Source: Nitrosotalea sp. (lineage in GTDB: Archaea; Thermoproteota; Nitrososphaeria; Nitrososphaerales; Nitrosopumilaceae). Taken from it: a stretch of 40,359 bases of DNA. This document shows positions 16,031-29,418 of this stretch, piece by piece (position 1 is the first letter of the stretch; every line of letters begins with the position of its first letter). Both the position numbers and the translations under genes were made by a program. The stretch lies in assembly GCA_023252235.1 (NCBI GenBank), contig JAHEXH010000006.1:1-40359 (forward strand), given 5' to 3'. The notes below the pieces were generated by a model, which did no database searches, had not been told where the DNA came from, and worked only from the letters and a program-made list of their open reading frames with translations.

Positions 16031-16435
16031 TTGGCTACATTCAAGCTGAATATATCTGACAAGAAAGGAAAAACCATCACCAAAGAGGTAAAGGAAAAGG
16101 ATGCTGGACCATTTTTGGGTTTGCAGGTAGGTAGTGAATTAGATGCTGCGTTGGTAGGAGAATCTGGTAAATTAAAAATAACTGGAGGTAGCGACAAGTC
16201 AGGAGTTCCACTACGAGAAGATATTCATGGCGGTGCTAGAAAATACATTTTGTTATCTAAGGGTGTAGGATTAAGAGATGCTGAAAAAGGACAGAGAATA
16301 CGTAAGCTTGTTAGAGGAAATACCATAACAGAAGAAGTCTATCAATTAAATTGCTTTTTTGACGGAGAACTTAAGGTAGAAGAAAAACCAGCTGAAGGAC
16401 AAGAGAAAGAATCTGCCGAGAAAACTAAGGCATAG
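16031..16435 (+). CDS. rps6e: 30S ribosomal protein S6e
   Basis: FKLNISDKKGKTITKEVKEKDAGPFLGLQVGSELDAALVG...KITGGSDKSGVPLREDIHGGARKYILLSKGVGLR; TTG start. Confidence 0.93.
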   Translation: MATFKLNISDKKGKTITKEVKEKDAGPFLGLQVGSELDAALVGESGKLKITGGSDKSGVPLREDIHGGARKYILLSKGVGLRDAEKGQRIRKLVRGNTITEEVYQLNCFFDGELKVEEKPAEGQEKESAEKTKA

Positions 16436-16465
16436 GTTAACATATCTGCTTTTTCTAGTTTGTAC

Positions 16466-17731
16466 ATGCACTGGAAAGATACACTTCCTGATTGGTATGT
16501 AAAAAAATATGGTTATCAGCCATGTGTAAATATTGGAACCGCAGGTCATGTTGATCATGGAAAGACAACTCTTATCCAAGCTTTGACTGGTGTCTGGACT
16601 AGTGCACATAGCGAGGAATTGAAACGAGGAATTACTATTAGAGTTGGATATGCTGATGCCGCATTTTACAAATGTAAAAGCTGTGAAGTTCCCTTAGGTT
16701 ATTCAGTAACACCAAAGTGTAACAATTGTGGAAAAGAAAGTGAATTATCACGTGTTGTTAGTTTTGTAGATAGTCCAGGCCATGAAAGTTTAATGGCAAA
16801 TATGTTATCGGGTTCTGCTTTGATAGATGGTGCAATGCTCTTGGTTGCAGCCAATGAAAAAGTACCTCAGCCACAAACCAAGGAACACTTGCTTGCTTTG
16901 CAAACGCTTGGAATAAAACAAGTGGTTATAGTTCAAAACAAAGTGGATTTAATATCATATGAACAAGCCATGGAAAACTATGCAGACATTGTAAAATTTG
17001 TCAAAGGAACCACTGCAGCAAAAGCTCCCATTATTCCAATTTCCGCCCAATCAAAATTAAACATTGATGCCTTGATAGGAGCAATTGAATCCTCAATACC
17101 TACTCCTGAGAGGGATGAGAAAAATAATACTGTTATGCATGTACTCAGATCATTTGATGTTAACAAGCCTGGAACCAAAATAAAAGACATCAAAGGTGGC
17201 GTTATCGGAGGAAGTATAGTTCAAGGAACATTCCAGGTAGGAGATGAAATTGAGATAAAACCTGGTTTAGCTAATGAGAAAACAGGAAAATATGAACCAA
17301 TTTTCACCGAGATTGCATCTCTTGGAACTGGGGCAGGAATAGTTAAAGAAGTAAAATCTGGTGGCTTGATTGCAATAGCAACTAAACTTGATCCGACAAT
17401 GACAAGAAGTGACTCGTTAATAGGTTCAGTAATAGGTAAGCCCGGTACCCTGCCAGAAAATTCTTACAATGCAAAAATTGAGGTAAATCTATTTGATACT
17501 GCAGTGGGATCTGGTGAAGAAATCAAAGTTTCTCCAATAACTACAGGTGAATCTTTGAGATTAAGTTTAGGAACTGCTCCACTCTTGTCCAAAGTTACAA
17601 GTGTAAGAGGCAAAACAGTGGAATTACAATTCAAAAGACCTGTATGTATTTTTGATAATAGTAAAGTGGCAATAAGTAGAAGAATCGCTGAAAGATGGAG
17701 ACTAATTGGTGCCGGTGTAGCAAGTGGTTAA
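16466..17731 (+). CDS. eif2g: Translation initiation factor aIF2 subunit gamma
   Basis: GTPase motifs GTAGHVDHGKTTL, VDSPGHESLMANML, VQNKVDL; zinc knuckle CKSCEVPLGYSVTPKCNNCG. ATG at 16466 preferred over the upstream TTG. Confidence 0.95.
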   Translation: MHWKDTLPDWYVKKYGYQPCVNIGTAGHVDHGKTTLIQALTGVWTSAHSEELKRGITIRVGYADAAFYKCKSCEVPLGYSVTPKCNNCGKESELSRVVSFVDSPGHESLMANMLSGSALIDGAMLLVAANEKVPQPQTKEHLLALQTLGIKQVVIVQNKVDLISYEQAMENYADIVKFVKGTTAAKAPIIPISAQSKLNIDALIGAIESSIPTPERDEKNNTVMHVLRSFDVNKPGTKIKDIKGGVIGGSIVQGTFQVGDEIEIKPGLANEKTGKYEPIFTEIASLGTGAGIVKEVKSGGLIAIATKLDPTMTRSDSLIGSVIGKPGTLPENSYNAKIEVNLFDTAVGSGEEIKVSPITTGESLRLSLGTAPLLSKVTSVRGKTVELQFKRPVCIFDNSKVAISRRIAERWRLIGAGVASG

Positions 17732-18124: not shown

Positions 18125-18781
18125 ATGTTCGAATACAAAGGAATTAAGATAAAATGGCTTGGCCATAATTCTTTTAGTATAGATGCTAATATCAAAATCA
18201 TAACTGATCCGTACAAAATTATTACACAAGAAAAAGCAGACATAATTTTACTTTCACATAATCATTTTGATCATCTTAGTGTTGATGATCTAAAAAATGT
18301 CTCCACTGATAATACCACTATTGTTGCTGCAAATGAATGCATGAATATGCTGACAGGATTTCCCTTTAAAGAAAAAATTGGAATTCTTCCATATGAAGAA
18401 AAAACTGTGAAGGGAATCAAGATTAAAGCAACTAGGGCATATAATCTAGACAAAATAAATCCTGAAACCAAAAAACCCTTTCATCCAAAAGAAGATAATA
18501 AAATAGGTTTTCTGATCGAATTAAACGGTATTACAATCTATCATACGGGAGATACTGACTTGATTCCTGAAATGTCTGATATAACACCAGATATCGCACT
18601 TGTACCAGTTAGCGGAACATATGTTATGACTGCAAATGAGGCAGCTAAAGCTGTAGAAAGAATAAAGCCAAAAATTGTAATTCCTATGCATTATGGAACA
18701 ATTGTTGGTAGCGAAAAAGACGCTCAGGATTTTAAACAATTAATAAAATCTTGTGAGGTTCAGATTCTTACAAAAGAGTAA
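18125..18781 (+). CDS. Metallo-beta-lactamase-fold metal-dependent hydrolase (UPF0173-like)
   Basis: IKWLGHNSFSID, LLSHNHFDHLSVDDL, YHTGDTDLIPEM, IPMHYGTI. Confidence 0.88.
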   Translation: MFEYKGIKIKWLGHNSFSIDANIKIITDPYKIITQEKADIILLSHNHFDHLSVDDLKNVSTDNTTIVAANECMNMLTGFPFKEKIGILPYEEKTVKGIKIKATRAYNLDKINPETKKPFHPKEDNKIGFLIELNGITIYHTGDTDLIPEMSDITPDIALVPVSGTYVMTANEAAKAVERIKPKIVIPMHYGTIVGSEKDAQDFKQLIKSCEVQILTKE

Positions 18782-18810: not shown

Positions 18811-21600
18811 TTGATTCAAGATGCCAAGCTGTTCAAGGTACGAAATTTTGAATTTCATTTACGTCATCTTCTTGTTATAGGTATTCTTATCATTTCATTT
18901 TCAATATCTGTGATGATACGATCTCAGGGAGCTGATTATGGTTTTCAACTAAATGAATTTGATCCTTATTTCAACTATAGAGCTACGCAATATCTCGTAG
19001 ATCATGGTCTGAATGCATATGTAAATTGGCATGATGATATGAGTTGGTATCCAGTTGGAAGGGACGTCTTTTCAAATGCACAGGTTCCACTTCACGTGAC
19101 AGATGCAGTATTGTACAAGATATTTGGAGGGGGTATGAGTCTGTATGATTTCACTATTATATTTCCAGTAATATTTGGTTCATTTACTGCAATAGTTGTA
19201 TTTGCTCTAGTGCGAGTCATAGGTGGAACTACTGCAGGACTTTTTGCTTCGCTCTTCTTTGCATTATCTCCACCTATAATAGTAAGAGGAACCATTGGTT
19301 GGTTCAAATCAGAACCATTAGGATTGTTTTATGGTATACTTGGTCTGTATCTATTTCTAAGTGGATTGAAATCAGAAAATCGAAAAATTGCAGCTACGAA
19401 ACTAACTGCAGGTGGATTCTTCCTAGCAGTAGGTTTTGCATCATGGGGTGGAGTAGAATTCTTCCTACTTCCTATTGGTCTGTTTATTATCGCTCTCCCA
19501 TTCCTAAGAAAAGATCACAAGTTTCTCATCTGGGCAATTCCACTCTTTGTTGCTGTTACCATGGCAATAGCTGGAGGACTATTTGCAAGACCTGGCCCCA
19601 CTTTTGTATTTGGAATCAGAGGATTAGTAATGATCGGACCAACAATATTGTTAGTCGTAATAATTCTCATTCAAAAATATAGTAAGGAGCACGTCAGGCT
19701 AAGAAATAGTGTAATTGGATTAGCTGGTTTGATAGTAGGCGGTGTAACAGCTATAAGTTTGTCCGGAATTATCTCCCATACAACCACTTTTAGATATATT
19801 AACGCACTAAATCCGTTCCTTACCTCGGAAGATCCTTTGGTTGATTCAGTTGCAGAACATGCAACACCTACACTTGCACAGAATTTTTCCTACTTTTCAA
19901 TCCTAATGCTCTTTGCAGGCTTGGGTATCTGGCTGATATTTAGAAAGAAGAGTGGCGAGGCTAACCAATCACGACTCTCTTTAAAAAATGAAATGACTAT
20001 TTTTGCTCTAATAATTGGTATGGTTGGTGCCTATGCTGGTTCTACCTTTGCTAGATTGGAATTGTTGACAGCTACATCTGTCATAATACTCTCTGCAGTG
20101 GGTTTGGCTGCACTTACCTCTGAAATTTTTAAGAAAAATGAAAAACCATTCAAAGTAAACGAACATTCAAAGAAAGGAGCACCACCGACTAAAAAAACAA
20201 ATGACTTCCTTGGAGTAATTCCAAAGATTGCATTTGTAGCAGTGATAGTTGCATTATTGTTAATTCCTACATTATATCCAGTAAATGCAAACTGGATATC
20301 TATAACAAAATCTCCTCCAACAATTCTCAATGGTGGATCTAATTTCGCTATTGCAACTAATGATTGGCCTGATACACTCAAGTGGATTAAGGATAATACG
20401 CCAAAAGATTCGGTTGTAGCGTCTTGGTGGGACTATGGATATTGGATACAGACTCTGGCAGAGAGAAAAACATTAGCTGATAATGCTACTGTAGATACAA
20501 ATAGGATAGCAAAGATAGCCCAAATGTTACTTAGTTCTCCAGATGTGGCTTGGCAAAAATTACATGAAATGGGCGCAAACTATGTTTTAGTTTATGTGGT
20601 AGGTCAAAAATTTGTCTCAAACGGTCAGGATCTTTACATACTTGGTGGTGGAGGAGATGAAAGCAAGAAACAATGGTTTATGAAAATAGGGGGCCTAGAC
20701 TCATCCAAATTCTTACAAGACGATGCCTTTACACCTACTGATTACTTTTGGAAAAATACTCTACTTGGACAAATGTTTACATTTACTCCTGTGACATATT
20801 ATGATCCAAATACTCACACAGAGTCACCTACCTATACTACTGGTTATACTGCAATCTATTCAAAAACGGTAAAATATCCAATAGATGGTAATGGACCATT
20901 ACGTCTGGTGTATTCATCATCAAGCTTGGACAGGAAAGAATCTGGTGTATTTTCAGGAGTATTGGTTTACCAAGTCAATCCTGATTACAAATCCCAAACA
21001 GGTGCTACCCCTCTCTACGATTCCTCAAAAGGGAATAATTCTAGTACAACTTCAGTAAAACCTACGGTTTCCACTAGCAGTTCTACTAGTGGAAATATTG
21101 CAGTAATTGATACAAAGTTTGGGGAAATCAAATTCAGATTATTGGATGACGTTGCACCAAAAACAACATCCAATTTTATCAAGCTTGCTAACTCTGGATT
21201 CTATGATGGAACTATATTCCATAGAATAGTTCCAGGATTTGTAATACAAGCTGGTGATCCAAATACGATAAAAGGTCCAAGAAACACTTGGGGTATTGGA
21301 GATGCAGGATATACAATTCCTCCAGAATTTAGTAAAAATCTACAATTCTCAAAATACATGGTGGGTATGGCACGTGGTTCTGATGTTAACAGTGGAAGCT
21401 CTCAATTCTTCATTACTCTTGGTGATGCTTCATGGTTGAATGATCAGTATACCCTATTTGGTGAGGTTGTATCTGGACAAGATGTTGTTGATAAAATGGC
21501 TACACTAAAGACTAATTCTGACAGTCAACCAGAGGATGCTGACTCTGCACGTATCACAAAGATTAGTGTTGAATCCTCATCTAACAATACGGTCAAGTAA
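18811..21600 (+). CDS. aglB: Oligosaccharyltransferase STT3/AglB with C-terminal cyclophilin-type peptidyl-prolyl isomerase domain
   Basis: STT3 hallmarks: multi-TM N-terminus, NEFDPYFNYRATQYL, VVASWWDYGYWI. C-terminal cyclophilin: IAVIDTKFGEIKFRLLDDVAPKTTSNFIKLANSGFYDGTIFHRIVPGFVIQAGD...SGSSQFFITLGDASWLNDQYTLFGEVVSG. One uninterrupted ORF with a Ser/Thr-rich linker. Confidence 0.92.
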   Translation: MIQDAKLFKVRNFEFHLRHLLVIGILIISFSISVMIRSQGADYGFQLNEFDPYFNYRATQYLVDHGLNAYVNWHDDMSWYPVGRDVFSNAQVPLHVTDAVLYKIFGGGMSLYDFTIIFPVIFGSFTAIVVFALVRVIGGTTAGLFASLFFALSPPIIVRGTIGWFKSEPLGLFYGILGLYLFLSGLKSENRKIAATKLTAGGFFLAVGFASWGGVEFFLLPIGLFIIALPFLRKDHKFLIWAIPLFVAVTMAIAGGLFARPGPTFVFGIRGLVMIGPTILLVVIILIQKYSKEHVRLRNSVIGLAGLIVGGVTAISLSGIISHTTTFRYINALNPFLTSEDPLVDSVAEHATPTLAQNFSYFSILMLFAGLGIWLIFRKKSGEANQSRLSLKNEMTIFALIIGMVGAYAGSTFARLELLTATSVIILSAVGLAALTSEIFKKNEKPFKVNEHSKKGAPPTKKTNDFLGVIPKIAFVAVIVALLLIPTLYPVNANWISITKSPPTILNGGSNFAIATNDWPDTLKWIKDNTPKDSVVASWWDYGYWIQTLAERKTLADNATVDTNRIAKIAQMLLSSPDVAWQKLHEMGANYVLVYVVGQKFVSNGQDLYILGGGGDESKKQWFMKIGGLDSSKFLQDDAFTPTDYFWKNTLLGQMFTFTPVTYYDPNTHTESPTYTTGYTAIYSKTVKYPIDGNGPLRLVYSSSSLDRKESGVFSGVLVYQVNPDYKSQTGATPLYDSSKGNNSSTTSVKPTVSTSSSTSGNIAVIDTKFGEIKFRLLDDVAPKTTSNFIKLANSGFYDGTIFHRIVPGFVIQAGDPNTIKGPRNTWGIGDAGYTIPPEFSKNLQFSKYMVGMARGSDVNSGSSQFFITLGDASWLNDQYTLFGEVVSGQDVVDKMATLKTNSDSQPEDADSARITKISVESSSNNTVK

Positions 21601-21611
21601 TTCGTTTTTTA

Positions 21612-21767
21612 CTACTTGTATCTATCAGAAATGCGATATCTTGCATATTTGTCATCAGGAGAATATTTTCCTGGATGTACAGTAGATGTCTCGTGTCCGC
21701 ATTTGGGACATTCTTCTTTTAGGGTATATTTCTTACAATCTGTACATTTTCGCATCTGAAAGTGCAT
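21612..21767 (-). CDS. nop10: Ribosome biogenesis protein Nop10
   Basis: MHFQMRKCTDCKKYTLKEECPKCGHETSTVHPGKYSPDDKYARYRISDRYK; the ORF-track N-terminal extension to 21836 lies inside aIF2-alpha. Confidence 0.92.
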   Translation of the reverse strand: MHFQMRKCTDCKKYTLKEECPKCGHETSTVHPGKYSPDDKYARYRISDRYK

Positions 21768-21768
21768 G

Positions 21769-22575
21769 TTAACCTTCTCTAGTCTTCTTTGACTCTTCTC
21801 TTGTAAATTTGAAGGTGCCACCCTTCTTCTCAACAATGTCCTGAACTGAGGAAATAATTGGTTTCAATTCCTTTTCAGCTTCTTTAAAGTTTGGTGCAGT
21901 TAGAGTAATACGATATTTGGGAGCACCGATATAAGTTACAGAGACTTCTTTCTTGTTAGCTGTAGAGTCAATTAATGCATGTTTTATTATTTCAATACCA
22001 TTAGATTTGTTACAGGTTAATTCAAAAATACCTCGTATCTCAACATGTGGAACTTGAATCTTTGAACCCAATTCTGCAATAATGGTTAATGTCTTTGGAG
22101 GAATGTTGAGGTTATCCAAAATGGATATGCCTTTTGCTGAAACTTCTGAAAATGCATCGTAGATAGAGCCAAATTTTTCAACCAGCGTATTTTCTAATTT
22201 TTCAATATCTGCATCAGATAAATTGATATGAGATTTTAGATTTTCAATTAAGGCTTCTTCTTTTTCACCACGCTTTATCTCTATGAGTTTCTTCTTTTTT
22301 TGATCAGACGATACTTGTTTTAATGATAAATCTATTTCAGACCTTCTAGGATCTACTCGTTTTACAAGTAAAACTTTTTTCTCTCCTGTTTTGAGAAATT
22401 TTGCTACATTTCTTATCCAACCAGTAGCAATCTCGGAAACATGTAAGAATCCCTGAACGTTATTGTATTCGTCAAGCGCAACATAAGCTCCTTGATCTAC
22501 TATTCTTGTTACAGTAGCAACTACAATCTCTCCCACCTCAGGGAAATTCTGGACAGTTGTTGTCATAGCCTTCAA
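21769..22575 (-). CDS. eif2a: Translation initiation factor aIF2 subunit alpha
   Basis: S1 domain FPEVGEIVVATVTRIVDQGAYVALDEYNNVQGFLHVSEIATGWIRNV...VDPRRSEIDLSLKQV; adjacent to nop10. Confidence 0.93.
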   Translation of the reverse strand: MKAMTTTVQNFPEVGEIVVATVTRIVDQGAYVALDEYNNVQGFLHVSEIATGWIRNVAKFLKTGEKKVLLVKRVDPRRSEIDLSLKQVSSDQKKKKLIEIKRGEKEEALIENLKSHINLSDADIEKLENTLVEKFGSIYDAFSEVSAKGISILDNLNIPPKTLTIIAELGSKIQVPHVEIRGIFELTCNKSNGIEIIKHALIDSTANKKEVSVTYIGAPKYRITLTAPNFKEAEKELKPIISSVQDIVEKKGGTFKFTREESKKTREG

Positions 22576-22604: not shown

Positions 22605-23135
22605 TTAAAAGTCAATTCCTTTTTTTGCTTTTATTCCAGATTTGAAGGGGTGTTTTATCTCCCTCATTTCAGTAACTAGATCAGCTTTTTCTATCACTTC
22701 ATCTTTAGCATAATTTCCAGTAAGAACTAAGCTAACATCATTAGGTTTGTTTGAAATAATTTCTAAAACATCTTCTAAATTTACCAGACCAAGATTTAAT
22801 GCATAATTTATCTCATCTAGTATTACAATGTTGTAAATTTCTGAATTAATTTTATCTCGTGCAACTCGAAGTGCTTCTTCTGCTACTTTTTTATGATCCT
22901 CAATAGGACTCTTGTCATCTATTATTCCAACAAAGCCCTTGCCTATCGCAGTAAGTTCAAACTCGGGTTCTAATCTTTTTGATGATGTCATTTCACCATA
23001 GTGCCATGAACCTTTGATGAATTGTACCATGCAAACTTTTTGATCATAACCAACTGCACGAAGAGCTATCCCGAGAGCGGCAGTCGTCTTTCCCTTGCCT
23101 TTTCCAGTGTAAACTATGATTAATCCTTTTGTCAC
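22605..23135 (-). CDS. cobO: Cob(I)yrinic acid a,c-diamide adenosyltransferase
   Basis: GLIIVYTGKGKGKTTAALGIALRAVGYDQKVCMVQFIKG, ILDEINYALNLGLV, LVLTGNYA; GTG start. Confidence 0.92.
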   Translation of the reverse strand: MTKGLIIVYTGKGKGKTTAALGIALRAVGYDQKVCMVQFIKGSWHYGEMTSSKRLEPEFELTAIGKGFVGIIDDKSPIEDHKKVAEEALRVARDKINSEIYNIVILDEINYALNLGLVNLEDVLEIISNKPNDVSLVLTGNYAKDEVIEKADLVTEMREIKHPFKSGIKAKKGIDF

Positions 23136-23183
23136 TAGGAATATTTTTTATGTGTCAGGTAAAAAGATTGGGTTCAAAAACAG

Positions 23184-23195
23184 AGAACTTGTTCT
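23184..23195. promoter_or_regulatory. Inverted repeat AGAAC-N2-GTTCT in the divergent cobO/reductase intergenic region (candidate operator)
   Basis: Perfect 5-bp arms in the 112-bp gap between divergent starts; TATA-like cttataatat at 23211-23220 lies just downstream, towards the + strand gene. Confidence 0.35.
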
Positions 23196-23247
23196 ATGCC
23201 AAAACCACAGCTTATAATATTGAATGAGAAAAATTTGAGTAATACAA

Positions 23248-24477
23248 ATGGCTAGAAATTATAATTATGATGTAGTCGTTGTGGGAGGAGGTCCGGCAGG
23301 TTTGTCAGCAGCATGGAGTGCAGCAAAAAAAGGTCTTAGTGTTGCCGTAATTGAAAGAGATGAAGCAATAGGACAAAATGTTAGGACAAGTGGAGTAACT
23401 TGGATAAAAGAGGCCAAGTCATTTGGAATCCCATCTGAATATTATAACGAAATAAGCAACTATGCATTTTATTCTCCAAATAATTATGTATTAAAAAAAA
23501 GTGAAACAGCTCAAGCAGCAGTTTTAGATGTAAGGAAAACATATCAATTTCTAGCATATCAGGCTGCTAGTGAAGGAGCAGACATTTTTTTAAGAACTAG
23601 TGTAACTGATGTGATTAAAAATGAAAACGAAAAATTAAGTGGAGTCAAGGCAACTTCACTCAAAGAAGATTTAATTTTTAACTCTAAACTTGTCATAGAT
23701 GCAAGTGGTTTCTATTCCATAGTTGGAAGATCTCTTGGTATGGTTTTACCGTGGAAAAAATTTGGAGCAGGGGCAGAATATGAAGCATATGTTGACAAAA
23801 TAGATTCTAATACCTGGTATCTCATGGTGGGTTCACAATATTCTCCTGCAGGTTATGCTTGGATTTTTCCATTAGGAAAAAATAAAGTACGTATAGGAGT
23901 AGGTGTAGGAAAACCGAATTCTCAAGCTGATGCTAACAAACTACTGATTGAATTGTTAGAAAAAAGACCAAAACCTCTAGCTGATCTGGGACGAATTGTT
24001 CCAATAGAATTTCATTACGGTCTAATTCCAAACGAAGGATTGCGACAATCAACCATATCTGACAACCTTATACTAGTTGGTGATTCTGCAGGACAGGCAA
24101 ATCCATTGGTCCTAGAAGGAATAAGATATGCCATTGAATTTGGTAGAGCTGCTGGTACAATTGGTGGAGAATCTGTAATTCAAGGTGATACGTCTAAAGA
24201 ATCGTTAAAATCTTATGAAGAAACCATGAAAAAAGCAATAGGATCAAAGATAGCGGCTGCAATTAAGGTACAGTATAGATGGCTGAATCTAAGTGATCAG
24301 GAATGGGACAAAGAAATTGAAATCATAGGTGAACTTTCTGCTGAAGAATTTCTTGATTTTATCAAGGCAGACTTTGGGATGGCTAACATGCTAAAACTTG
24401 CAACACATCACCCAAAGCTTGCACTTCGTCAGCTTTTCCAAATTATAAAAAATACTGGAAAAGATGAAGAGATATGA
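23248..24477 (+). CDS. FAD-dependent oxidoreductase, geranylgeranyl reductase (GGR) family
   Basis: YDVVVVGGGPAGLSAAWSAAKKGLSVAVIERD, ILVGDSAGQANPLVLEGIRYAIEFGRAAG. Confidence 0.87.
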   Translation: MARNYNYDVVVVGGGPAGLSAAWSAAKKGLSVAVIERDEAIGQNVRTSGVTWIKEAKSFGIPSEYYNEISNYAFYSPNNYVLKKSETAQAAVLDVRKTYQFLAYQAASEGADIFLRTSVTDVIKNENEKLSGVKATSLKEDLIFNSKLVIDASGFYSIVGRSLGMVLPWKKFGAGAEYEAYVDKIDSNTWYLMVGSQYSPAGYAWIFPLGKNKVRIGVGVGKPNSQADANKLLIELLEKRPKPLADLGRIVPIEFHYGLIPNEGLRQSTISDNLILVGDSAGQANPLVLEGIRYAIEFGRAAGTIGGESVIQGDTSKESLKSYEETMKKAIGSKIAAAIKVQYRWLNLSDQEWDKEIEIIGELSAEEFLDFIKADFGMANMLKLATHHPKLALRQLFQIIKNTGKDEEI

Positions 24478-25829
24478 AAATTCCAAGAATTGTTCTTGCA
24501 GGTGTAACTAGTGGTGTAGGTAAAACATCTATCACAACTGCAATAATCCATGGTCTAAAGGAAAAGGGATATTCAGTTCAACCATTCAAAGTAGGACCTG
24601 ATTTTATAGATCCAAGTTATCTTACTTCTGTAGCAGGTAAAATTGCTCATAATCTCGATGTTTGGATGATGGGAAAAAATGGAGTTCTCAAAAGTTTTAT
24701 CCATAATTCAGAGGCAGATATTTCTGTAATAGAAGGTGTAATGGGATATTATGATGGTTTCAGTGGAAAATCAAGTTTTGCAAGTACCTATGATGTTGCA
24801 AATATTACAAAATCTCAGGTGATTCTTGTTTTAGATGCAAGCAGAGCTGCTCGTTCTATTGCTGCAACTGCATTGGGATTCAAAAATTTTGAGAGAAATT
24901 CTAGAATATGCGGTGTAATCCTCAATAAAATAGGTAGCAAAAAACATGAACAGCTCTGTAGAGATGCACTAAAAAGAGTAAAACTACCAATATTGGGAGT
25001 TATTCCAAGAAATAATGATCTTCAGCTAGAATCAAGGCATCTAGGTCTTATACCGGTGAGGGAGAAAATATCTCTTGATAAAAAAATTAAATCCATAGCC
25101 AAGTCCCTCTCAAGTTTTATTGAAATAGAAAAAATCATTAAACTTTCTAAAAATGCACCTGTTCTTCCTCACATTCCTGATATGAAGAACAGAAAAAAAC
25201 AAACTAGAATAGCGGTTGCATTGGATGAATCTTTTAATTTCTATTATCAAGATAATCTGGATTCATTAAAAAGATTGGGTGCAGAAATTGTATACTTTAG
25301 TCCAATTTCAGATAAGAAAATACCATCATGTGACGGAATCTATCTTGGAGGTGGATTTCCAGAAGTCAAAGGTGAATTACTTCAAAGAAATAATTCGATG
25401 AAGAAATTGATTAAAAAAGCTGCTGAGGATGGCTTACCAATTTATGCTGAATGTGGAGGACTCATGTATTTGACAAAATCCATAAGTTATAAATCTGGAA
25501 AATTTAAAATGGTTGGACTTTTTGACGCTGTCACCGTGATGGAACAGAAATTAAAATTAAATTATACCAGTGCAAAGATTAGATCAAACTCTCCATTTTC
25601 ATTAGAATCAAAAATTATCAAAGGACATGAATTTCATTATTCTGAATTGGATTCATTATCAAAAGATTCAAAATTTGCATATGATTTGTCAATTGGTATG
25701 GGTATTAAAGACAAAAAAGATGGCCTGACTGTGTATAACACTTTGGCATCATATATGCATGTACACTTTTCTAATTCCCCAATTGCGAATAACTTTGTAA
25801 ATGCATGTATTTCTTATTCAAAAAAGTAA
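24474..25829 (+). CDS. cbiA: Cobyrinate a,c-diamide synthase
   Basis: RIVLAGVTSGVGKTSITTAIIHGLKEKGYSVQPFKVGPDFIDPSYLTSVAG; GATase motif YAECGGLMYLT; ATGA overlap with the upstream reductase. Confidence 0.93.
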   Translation: MKIPRIVLAGVTSGVGKTSITTAIIHGLKEKGYSVQPFKVGPDFIDPSYLTSVAGKIAHNLDVWMMGKNGVLKSFIHNSEADISVIEGVMGYYDGFSGKSSFASTYDVANITKSQVILVLDASRAARSIAATALGFKNFERNSRICGVILNKIGSKKHEQLCRDALKRVKLPILGVIPRNNDLQLESRHLGLIPVREKISLDKKIKSIAKSLSSFIEIEKIIKLSKNAPVLPHIPDMKNRKKQTRIAVALDESFNFYYQDNLDSLKRLGAEIVYFSPISDKKIPSCDGIYLGGGFPEVKGELLQRNNSMKKLIKKAAEDGLPIYAECGGLMYLTKSISYKSGKFKMVGLFDAVTVMEQKLKLNYTSAKIRSNSPFSLESKIIKGHEFHYSELDSLSKDSKFAYDLSIGMGIKDKKDGLTVYNTLASYMHVHFSNSPIANNFVNACISYSKK

Positions 25830-25847
25830 ACTGCGGTAAATGATATT

Positions 25848-26483
25848 TTATGCAGATTTTGATATTAGAATTTTAAAAAGTGCATTAACTATTGCCGAAG
25901 CACATGGGCTTCCACCTTTTCGACCTATGTTTGTAATGTATGGCACATCTGTAGTACGAAGATCATCTTTTGATTCTACCGCACAGACAAACCCTACCGG
26001 AATTCCAATAACAAGAGCAGGTGATGTCACGCCTTCTTTTATCATCTGTATCACTTCAAGAAGGGCAGTCGGTGCATTACCTATGGCTACAATTCCTTGG
26101 TTCATCTGTTTGGCAGCTAATCTCATTGATGTTTGAGCTCGTGTTTTGTCTAACCTTTTTGCTTCCTCTACCACTAGGGGATCTGATATGTTACATATGA
26201 CTTGATTTCCAAATCTCTTCAGGTTATCCTTGTTAAAACCGCCTGTAACTGCATTAACGTCAACTATGATATTGCAACCTTTTTGTAATGCCTCAATGGC
26301 GCTTTTTATTGCATCTTTGTGAAATATCACCCTATTTTCTCTTGCAAAGTCAAAATCTGCAGTAGAGTGAATCATTCTTTTTACTATGATCCATTCATCA
26401 GATGAATATGGGTGGGGGCCAATTTCGCTATCAATTATTTCCATGCTTTTGTCTTCAATTGATTGGCCCTTTTGAGTAATCAT
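25848..26483 (-). CDS. cbiC: Precorrin-8X / cobalt-precorrin-8 methylmutase
   Basis: EWIIVKRMIHSTADFDFARENRVIF, IIVDVNAVTGGF, IAIGNAPTALLEVI, IGIPVGFVCAVESKDDL. Confidence 0.92.
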   Translation of the reverse strand: MITQKGQSIEDKSMEIIDSEIGPHPYSSDEWIIVKRMIHSTADFDFARENRVIFHKDAIKSAIEALQKGCNIIVDVNAVTGGFNKDNLKRFGNQVICNISDPLVVEEAKRLDKTRAQTSMRLAAKQMNQGIVAIGNAPTALLEVIQMIKEGVTSPALVIGIPVGFVCAVESKDDLRTTDVPYITNIGRKGGSPCASAIVNALFKILISKSA

Positions 26484-27226
26484 GATTCTACCTCATTAGC
26501 TCTTTCGATAATCAAGTCGATCATTTTTTCATCAGCACCTATGTGTTGTGTGATTAGAACTTTCTTCAATTTGTATTTCTCTAATGCAGGCTTGAGATCG
26601 GCATTGATATCTGTTTTTACATGCGCACCCTCATGTAAAAAGTAAAATACAACAACAAGAACCTCAGGGTTTCTTTCTTTACAAATTTGTATTCCTTGTT
26701 CTATATTTGGTTCTTCAATTTCTAAGAAACAATGATCAACATTTCTGTATGAATGACGAAGTTCATCCACAACATATTTTATTGAAATTTTTGCGTTTGG
26801 ATCTTTACTTCCATGCCCAATTACCAAGACATCTATTTTGTCATTTGTTAATGAACTTCCATCTTTTTTCAACGCTGACTTGATTCTATTTTCTACTAAT
26901 TTTACAAGAGTCATATGCATGGACATGGGTTTAGTAACAAGAAATTTCACATCTGCTGTTGCCTGATATTTCATAACTTCTGTAACGGCTGCTTTTACTT
27001 TTTTTCCAGGATACAAGAAATATGGTACTATAGTAAGAGAATCTATGTCATTTTTTAGACACTTTTTAATTCCATCTTCAATATACGGCGGTGTTACTTC
27101 TAAAAAACAATATTCTACAAAAACATAACCTCCTTTCTTTTTTACCTCTTTGCATATGGTTTCAAGCTCTTCACCGGCTTCCCTTTCTTTACTTCCTCTA
27201 TCTATTAACAGCAAACCACGTTTCAA
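26480..27226 (-). CDS. cbiX: Sirohydrochlorin cobaltochelatase (CbiX, two-repeat form)
   Basis: LLLIDRGSKEREAGEEL...VPYFLYPGKKVK and second repeat VLVIGHGSKDPNAKISI...VFYFLHEGAHVKTDI. Confidence 0.87.
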   Translation of the reverse strand: MKRGLLLIDRGSKEREAGEELETICKEVKKKGGYVFVEYCFLEVTPPYIEDGIKKCLKNDIDSLTIVPYFLYPGKKVKAAVTEVMKYQATADVKFLVTKPMSMHMTLVKLVENRIKSALKKDGSSLTNDKIDVLVIGHGSKDPNAKISIKYVVDELRHSYRNVDHCFLEIEEPNIEQGIQICKERNPEVLVVVFYFLHEGAHVKTDINADLKPALEKYKLKKVLITQHIGADEKMIDLIIERANEVES

Positions 27227-28290
27227 TTTGGTCTCCTTGCTATTGCTATGGTAAGATTGGGTGGAAATTTGTGTTTCTGAACAATTAGTTCTCCTCCACC
27301 AGAGGCCTTTATTGCAGCAGCCTCTGATACACTTGATGTTCCCTCAAATGTCTGTACAACATCTGAAGGATTAGGTATGTTTATGGTAGAGAGAACCTCT
27401 TTGTCAAAATATTCTGTTGGCACCTTCATCTCCTCTGATAACTCTTGTAATCCCTTTACATCAACTTCTTTTTTAATTGATGCAAATTTTGCTATAGATT
27501 TTGGGCTTAGCTGAAATTTAGACAGACAAAAATTCATTCCTTCCCTAATGATATCTTTGGTAGTATCCCAATGCAGACCTACTCCAACAACTAGTGTCTT
27601 TGGTCTATACATTACAACACGATCTTGGATTTCTTTATTTTCTATTATTTTATCAGAAATGATGAGAAATCCTTTACAGTCTGATTCTACAAGCTCACTA
27701 AAAGATTTGTAAATGTGAACATTTTTTGGAATCTCTTTCTTTGGGAGCCACCAATCCTTTTCGCCTGCATCTTGGAAAACACCAATTTTTTCTTCATTTA
27801 CCATAAATGCACTAACCTTAGTAACACTGGAACTTTCATCTATGCTCCAACCAAACTCCTTTCCAAGCAGATCAACAGCAATTGTCTTGTTTACATCTGC
27901 TGCTGTAGTAACAACTGGAGTTGCATTAAGAGTGGATGCTATTTTTTCGGTAAGTTCGTTTGCACCACCCAGATGGCCTGAGAGTGTACTTATTACAAAT
28001 TTTGCTGTATCATCTATAACTACTACTGCAGGATCTGTTTTTTTGTCTTTCATATGTGGCGCAATCAATCTAATTACTGCGCCCAAAGAAAAAATACATA
28101 CTAGTGCACTATGATTTTCAAATAATTCTTTTATCTTTAAAGTAGTTGACTCGTCAAACCACTCAATATCTTTTCTTTCTTGATGGAATTTTGAGGGTAC
28201 AAATATCTTCCATGAAGGAAAATGATTCTTGAGTGAAGATGCTATGTCAATACCGTTCTTTGTTATTGCAATTATGGCTACGCTATCCAC
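27223..28290 (-). CDS. cbiG: Cobalt-precorrin-5A hydrolase
   Basis: LVCIFSLGAVIRLIAPHMKDKKTDPAVVVIDDTAKFVISTLSGHLGGANELTEKIA; C-terminal TLVVGVGLHWDTTKDII and SVSEAAAIKASGG. Confidence 0.92.
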   Translation of the reverse strand: MDSVAIIAITKNGIDIASSLKNHFPSWKIFVPSKFHQERKDIEWFDESTTLKIKELFENHSALVCIFSLGAVIRLIAPHMKDKKTDPAVVVIDDTAKFVISTLSGHLGGANELTEKIASTLNATPVVTTAADVNKTIAVDLLGKEFGWSIDESSSVTKVSAFMVNEEKIGVFQDAGEKDWWLPKKEIPKNVHIYKSFSELVESDCKGFLIISDKIIENKEIQDRVVMYRPKTLVVGVGLHWDTTKDIIREGMNFCLSKFQLSPKSIAKFASIKKEVDVKGLQELSEEMKVPTEYFDKEVLSTINIPNPSDVVQTFEGTSSVSEAAAIKASGGGELIVQKHKFPPNLTIAIARRPN

Positions 28291-28302
28291 AAAGTTGTTT
28301 TT

Positions 28303-29418
28303 TTAGGTCTTAAGATATTTGTTACTCTTTGGAAAAACTCCTATCACCTTACCATCAAAATCAAACATGATTACCTCGATCTCAAACTTGTTATCTGAAT
28401 ATTTTACAAGTTGTTTGTGAGCCTCTAAACAGACCATGTTGAAATAGTCAATTATGTTTCTTTCATTTATAATTTCAAATACATGCCTTGCAGTGTTTGC
28501 CTTTTTGATACTGTTTATGACATCTTGTGGTGCTCCACATCTTTTAGCCAAATCTGCAAGAAACTCCATGTCAACCTTTGAGCCCTTTACATGAGTCTGT
28601 TTTACACCCATTGCCATCTTTGCTAGCTTTCCAACAAATCCTGCAACATAGGCTTTCTTAATCTCCTTCTTTGCACAAACCTGGACAGTATATCCTGAAA
28701 AATCCCCCATCTGGACAAAACAGTGGTCTGGTAAATCAATTATCTTCCTTGAAAAATCCTCACTTCTTCCACCCGTTGTCAAAACAACAGTGTCATCTCC
28801 CATGGCTCTAGTAACCTCAATACTTTGTCTAATTGATGCAGCAAAAGATGCTGTAGAATATGGAACAACAATGCCACTTGTTCCTAGGATTGAAATGCCT
28901 CCAATGATTCCAAGTCTTGGATTGTCTGTCTTGAGAGCAAGCTCTCTTCCCTTTGGCACTGATATCATCACTTTGATTCCGTTTTTTACAAGAATATCTT
29001 TTGCTATCTCTAGAATGTTTTCTTTTATCATTTTTTTAGGAGTAGGATTTATGGCGGCAGCACCTATCTCTAATCCTAGTCCAGGTTTGGTAACTCTGCC
29101 AACTCCTTCTCCACCATCAATTTCTATCTCTCCAAGTTTTTCAGTCAGTGATACCTCTGTTATTATTTCAGCTCCATGGGTAACATCAGGATCATCTCCA
29201 CCGTCTTTTATCACCACACATATGGAATTACATTTACTAAATTCACAATTTTCAATTTTTATTCGAATCCGAGATTTTTTGGGTAAGGTAACATCAACAA
29301 AATCTGTTTTCTTTTGATCTATGATCGAAAGTATTGCAGCTTTTGCTCCAGCTGTTGCTGAAGTTCCTGTTGTAAAACCTGTTCTTAGTTTTCCCTTTGG
29401 TTTGTCTTCCTCTCCCAT
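28303..29418 (-). CDS. cbiD: Cobalt-precorrin-5B (C1)-methyltransferase
   Basis: KLRTGFTTGTSATAGAKAAILSI, VIKDGGDDPDVTHGAEI, GVGRVTKPGLGLEIGAAAINPTPKKMI. Confidence 0.94.
   Translation of the reverse strand: MGEEDKPKGKLRTGFTTGTSATAGAKAAILSIIDQKKTDFVDVTLPKKSRIRIKIENCEFSKCNSICVVIKDGGDDPDVTHGAEIITEVSLTEKLGEIEIDGGEGVGRVTKPGLGLEIGAAAINPTPKKMIKENILEIAKDILVKNGIKVMISVPKGRELALKTDNPRLGIIGGISILGTSGIVVPYSTASFAASIRQSIEVTRAMGDDTVVLTTGGRSEDFSRKIIDLPDHCFVQMGDFSGYTVQVCAKKEIKKAYVAGFVGKLAKMAMGVKQTHVKGSKVDMEFLADLAKRCGAPQDVINSIKKANTARHVFEIINERNIIDYFNMVCLEAHKQLVKYSDNKFEIEVIMFDFDGKVIGVFPKSNKYLKT

Follow-up and report, generated by a model that had tools for sequence, protein, structure and literature searches.

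One gene of Nitrosotalea sp. encodes a complete STT3/AglB oligosaccharyltransferase (OST), a linker, and a complete cyclophilin as one polypeptide. The gene lies in the middle of the window, that is, the whole stretch of 40,359 nucleotides that was analysed (Table 1). The fusion is probably ancestral to ammonia-oxidizing archaea, as judged from its distribution and the STT3 tree, and the fused cyclophilin is most likely a tethered, active prolyl isomerase that acts at the OST on envelope proteins such as the S-layer protein. The frame is unbroken over 929 codons (0 internal stops), exactly as placed by the initial annotation, and all relatives inspected (19 of 19) start with TTG at the matching position of the alignment, which indicates that the N-terminus is right.

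Table 1. Features of the fused gene and its neighbours in the window.
Feature	Coordinates	Strand	Remarks
rpS6e and aIF2-gamma, conserved upstream neighbours	16031..17731	+	
Metallo-beta-lactamase-fold protein, upstream neighbour	18125..18781	+	Beside most fused genes
Whole fused gene: STT3/AglB oligosaccharyltransferase with C-terminal cyclophilin	18811..21600	+	929 aa, TTG start
STT3 membrane part, 13 TM helices	18859..20271	+	Residues 17-487
STT3 C-terminal extracytoplasmic domain with WWDYG	20272..20994	+	WWDYG at residues 539-543
Disordered Ser/Thr/Asn-rich linker	21001..21090	+	Residues ~731-760; pLDDT <50 at 731-759
Cyclophilin (PPIase) domain	21091..21579	+	Residues ~761-923
Nop10 (47 aa), immediately downstream, convergent	21612..21755	-	Shorter than the ORF length cut used
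aIF2-alpha, next after Nop10	21769-22575	-	
Cobalamin adenosyltransferase (BtuR), after aIF2-alpha	22605-23135	-	

Both halves are recognized by Pfam models of their families. The STT3 half matches PF02516 (STT3 N-terminal; residues 47-427, 7e-29; 101.9 bits, above the curated cut-off of 24.5) and PF21436 (STT3-PglB core; residues 533-588, 2e-7; 31.9 bits, above the cut-off of 23), and the C-terminal half matches PF00160 (cyclophilin; residues 766-917, 2e-44; 151.9 bits, above the cut-off of 21.7). The STT3 core with its WWDYG motif, the Ser/Thr-rich linker, and the complete cyclophilin domain, all first read from the sequence, were thus recovered. Among solved structures, those closest in sequence are human STT3A (E 6e-60, residues 26-646) and cyclophilins. 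Asp51 in the EL1 acidic motif (EFDPYFN) and Glu349 in the EL5 motif (SVAEH) are invariant among relatives, as are the alignment columns of WWDYG across 43 relatives. The linker contains two overlapping sequons, at Asn742 and Asn743. In almost all tests of sequence and fold, each half behaves as an ordinary member of its family, the exception being a Tyr for His126 of cyclophilin.

An AlphaFold2 model built from a 43-row alignment (mean pLDDT 80, pTM 0.70) has 13 membrane-length helices, followed by the STT3 soluble domain, a disordered stretch at residues 731-759, and the cyclophilin, which is modelled with a pLDDT of about 90. In Foldseek searches, the first part of the model has human STT3A as its best match (E 5e-28) and also matches Archaeoglobus AglB and PglB, and the last part matches cyclophilins (target TM up to 0.92, rmsd 1.7); the cyclophilin beta-barrel fold is present by both Foldseek and PF00160. 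When the loops are allotted alternately to the inside and the outside and only short loops are counted, Lys and Arg make up 24.3% of inside residues (0.243 per residue) versus 5.6% of outside residues (0.056 per residue). This clear positive-inside pattern, together with the 13 TM helices, places the C-terminus and the cyclophilin on the outer side of the membrane in the model, in agreement with the initial annotation; a cytoplasmic cyclophilin is ruled out by the helix count and the charge bias. A hydrophobic stretch of membrane-helix length after STT3 is absent from all 41 relatives checked (41/41).

The active site was surveyed in 71 distinct fused domains, using the numbering of human cyclophilin A. 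Arg55, Ala101, Gln111, and Leu122 are present in 71 of 71, Gln63 and Phe60 in 70 each, and Phe113 in 69; the key residues are therefore 97-100% conserved, and the catalytic signature is retained, as had been proposed. In the Nitrosotalea domain itself, R, F, Q, A, Q, F, W, and L are all there, with Tyr at the position of His126. The initial annotation correctly identified this Tyr, which is not a defect: Tyr occupies the position in 71/71 fused domains, in almost every other cyclophilin from these archaea, and also in PpiA and PpiB of E. coli, which are active enzymes. There is thus no reason to doubt activity on this ground, and a cyclophilin degenerate because of the Tyr is ruled out. His126 is found in many, not all, cyclophilins and, given the Tyr of PpiA and PpiB, is not family-defining. 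The position of Trp121 varies among the fused domains (Phe in 35, Trp in 24, others in the rest), so that sensitivity to cyclosporin cannot be assumed.

The linker varies between relatives, whereas the flanking STT3 and cyclophilin parts are conserved, within-genus conservation being similar for the cyclophilin and STT3 parts (e.g., 82% and 80%). Its length ranges from 15 to 62 residues (median 36), with Ser and Thr accounting for about 38% of its composition. Linkers contain 71 N-X-S/T sequons versus 42.7 +/- 5.1 in shuffled sequences; this excess fits an exposed glycosylated linker but is suggestive only, because related sequences are not independent. In one fused frame (L199, genome G100), the linker is enlarged by tandem ANGTSPSNITTLASSL copies with sequons in each.

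To determine the distribution of the fusion, 400 genomes of the class were sampled; at least 80 of them, among the matches listed, have one open frame spanning STT3 and cyclophilin. Independent assemblies, single-contig genomes among them (G040, G079, G003, G025, G083, G070, G100, G093, G109, G132), have the same single frame, not the stop or frameshift that would have spoken against the fusion. In one relative (L050), the two halves lie in different frames, as an assembly, frameshift, or annotation artefact might produce, but with at least 80 genomes, several of them closed, carrying one intact frame, such an artefact is practically excluded as the explanation of the fusion. Among 80 named contigs, the fused loci belong to Nitrosotalea, Nitrosotenuis-like groups, Nitrososphaera, other Nitrososphaeraceae, and Nitrosocosmicus; the unfused loci belong almost entirely to Nitrosopumilus, Nitrosarchaeum, and other marine lineages. 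The fusion also occurs in one genome from each of two additional families (G112 and G137), in which no cyclophilin other than the fused domain was found. Each of 26 closed or near-complete ammonia-oxidizer genomes has one full-length STT3, the fused gene being the only OST where fused, and it is also the only OST found in the incomplete Nitrosotalea genome described here.

Outside the class, the fusion was found in none of about 250 genomes of the phylum among the matches listed; frames longer than 850 aa there had, among the matches listed, a single match ending before residue 640. Both STT3 and cyclophilin are absent from the tested genomes of genus g23 of family f2 (G067, G077, G080, G099, G164) and of the reduced-genome genus g15 of family f1 (G124, G147), which are 91-99% complete, and the joint absence of the two proteins from these genera is apparent. 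Two contigs are probably mis-binned: L069 has a Nitrosopumilus-type STT3 in a bin named Nitrososphaeraceae, and L082 has a Nitrosarchaeum-type STT3 in a bin named Chitinophagaceae.

In an STT3 tree of 97 rows, all ammonia-oxidizer sequences form one clade (SH-aLRT 100) whose deepest branches are fused. Together with the wide distribution, this rules out a recent fusion confined to Nitrosotalea, and what could have been taken for a local oddity is instead clade-wide and apparently ancestral in ammonia-oxidizing archaea, with later losses. The fusion label needs four changes on this tree, some placements inside Nitrosopumilaceae being poorly resolved. One gain on the ammonia-oxidizer stem followed by about three losses would be the simplest history, although not a proven one, and the losses would then fall in the Nitrosopumilus/Nitrosarchaeum clade, G046, and G089. 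In the short and weak cyclophilin tree (165 columns), the fused domains fall in three places; however, a single clade of fused domains is not rejected (AU p 0.29, and 0.48 without L114 and L115). Several independent fusions were set aside, since one clade is compatible with this tree and one gain, if not proven, is simpler with the STT3 tree.

The order rpS6e - aIF2-gamma - (metallo-beta-lactamase) - STT3 - Nop10 - aIF2-alpha - BtuR is common to fused genes and to Nitrosopumilus, in which Nop10 comes directly after the STT3 stop. The unfused STT3 of Nitrosopumilus thus occupies the shared slot, and synteny supports loss of the cyclophilin in place. A second clade of unfused Nitrosopumilus STT3 lies outside the rpS6e-aIF2 slot (L072, L079, L086, L088, L096, L103, L106, L108, L111), and two STT3 genes occur in one MAG (L080, L085). 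Elsewhere in the window, cobalamin genes (BtuR, CobB/CobQ-like, CbiC, CbiX, CbiG, CbiD) extend over 22605-29418, and a 945-aa open frame at the window edge (3-2840, +) matches nothing in Pfam at E 0.001.

In non-oxidizing relatives, STT3 is not fused, and the cyclophilins are separate proteins that have a TM anchor at the N-terminus followed by a linker; these anchored cyclophilins are a plausible source of the fused domain. In one small genome of a non-oxidizing relative (G187), two membrane-anchored cyclophilins lie in tandem (L140). Nitrosopumilaceae have a further cyclophilin, which is secreted, is about 520 aa long, and carries a GGGCLIATA region at its C-terminus (L174-L181 have a signal-like N-terminus and a hydrophobic tail). 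All unfused genomes inventoried (9 of 9) encode this protein, as do some fused genomes, and it is therefore probably older than the losses. A secreted cyclophilin of 484 aa in G070 (L182) has a domain that groups with a Nitrosocosmicus-type fused domain, a placement that suggests domain copying.

In the reading that we consider reasonably probable, the sole OST carries a prolyl isomerase tethered on the outside, which acts on exported chains as they pass the OST. The STT3 half would transfer N-glycans to the sequons of exported proteins, and the cyclophilin half, held by a flexible linker of about 15-60 residues that probably carries glycans, would isomerize prolines in these same proteins as they emerge (the S-layer protein and surface oxidases), aiding their folding or keeping acceptor sites accessible during passage. 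The PPIase activity, its substrates, and the direction of coupling are what we infer here. The glycoproteins identified in Nitrososphaera viennensis, namely its S-layer protein and two multicopper oxidases, point to plausible clients, whereas in Nitrosopumilus piranensis, whose genus is without the fused domain, the OST level is low and N-glycosylation is not detectable (PMC12153357). N. viennensis should carry the fusion, to judge from its family and closed genome G132, and the contrast, which concerns one pair of species, fits coupling. As a counterpoint, Nitrosopumilus manages without the fused domain, and a flexible tether alone is no proof of functional coupling.

Alternatively, the cyclophilin may work before transfer, isomerizing prolines near sequons or delaying folding so that more sites are glycosylated. 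In eukaryotic OST, the Ost3/Ost6 oxidoreductase subunits delay folding and thereby increase glycosylation. This alternative is possible but unlikely: the isomerase is in the same polypeptide and on the same side as the STT3 active site, and N. viennensis, from a fused family, is robustly glycosylated versus none in N. piranensis (two species only), but action before transfer and action after it are not distinguished by present data. It is also unlikely that the fusion is an evolutionary accident without coupling, in which STT3 merely serves as the membrane anchor that exports a housekeeping cyclophilin. Cyclophilins of non-oxidizing relatives are anchored by a plain N-terminal TM helix, and in Nitrosopumilus the fused domain is gone while a secreted cyclophilin remains, as such an accident would allow; however, nearly every other lineage has kept the fusion since the ammonia-oxidizer ancestor, although separation would be easy.

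More speculative, and rather improbable, is an ancestral one-chain machine for glycosylation and folding in which the isomerase determines the sequons open to glycosylation by the sole OST; on this view, N-glycosylation of the S-layer was relaxed or lost in the Nitrosopumilus group along with the machine. Still more doubtful is a domain that serves for binding or docking rather than catalysis, by analogy with human FKBP11 at the OST-A translocon (PMC12804085). The variability of position 121, which lies within the substrate pocket, would suit docking, but the catalytic Arg and core residues are essentially invariant over very deep divergence, which docking alone would not need.

With the tethered isomerase as the preferred reading, two steps in the maturation of envelope proteins, which elsewhere reside on separate proteins, would be joined in one polypeptide. 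The fusion is near-universal and apparently ancestral in ammonia oxidizers of soil and acid soil, some groups of which have cultured members, and it raises the testable question of whether proline isomerization sets the efficiency or the site choice of N-glycosylation. Nitrosopumilus offers a natural comparison, having the same gene slot without the domain, with undetectable N-glycosylation in one species, N. piranensis. A description of the fusion was not found in the openly searchable literature, outside which the main paper on AglB evolution (cited by PMC12153357) lies; it is unmentioned in a survey of archaeal PPIases (PMC8530231), and a literature search for a Nitrosocaldus/AglB paper found none.

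Archaeal AglB and eukaryotic STT3 share with the fused protein the domain organisation, WWDYG, the EL1 acidic and EL5 motifs, and the 13-TM fold, but do not have a C-terminal cyclophilin. The fused protein scores 117 bits, below the cut-off of 450, with the NCBIfam model archaeo_STT3 (TIGR04154), which is associated with the archaeosortase A system. E. coli PpiA and PpiB have the same fold, catalytic residues, and Tyr at the His126 position, and PpiA is likewise extracytoplasmic, but both are free-standing and no part of an OST. The TM-anchored cyclophilins of non-ammonia-oxidizing Nitrososphaeria also combine a linker with a cyclophilin that is extracytoplasmic by helix position, but they are encoded by a separate gene and STT3 is unfused there. 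Human FKBP11 places a prolyl-isomerase fold beside STT3A on the exit side of the OST-A translocon; its catalytic site lies buried under CCDC134, and the authors make the case that it does not serve as an isomerase (PMC12804085). It is a separate, non-homologous protein with an FKBP fold, in contrast to the cyclophilin fold of the domain described here. NmPin of Nitrosopumilus maritimus is a parvulin located between the membrane and the S-layer and is proposed to act on S-layer proteins (PMC4922055); it shares the extracytoplasmic prolyl-isomerase role, but has a parvulin fold and is a small separate protein held by a lysine patch. FKBP11 and NmPin are analogies, not relatives, and what is new, relative to AglB, PglB, and STT3 as described in the searchable literature, is the combination of STT3 with a cyclophilin.
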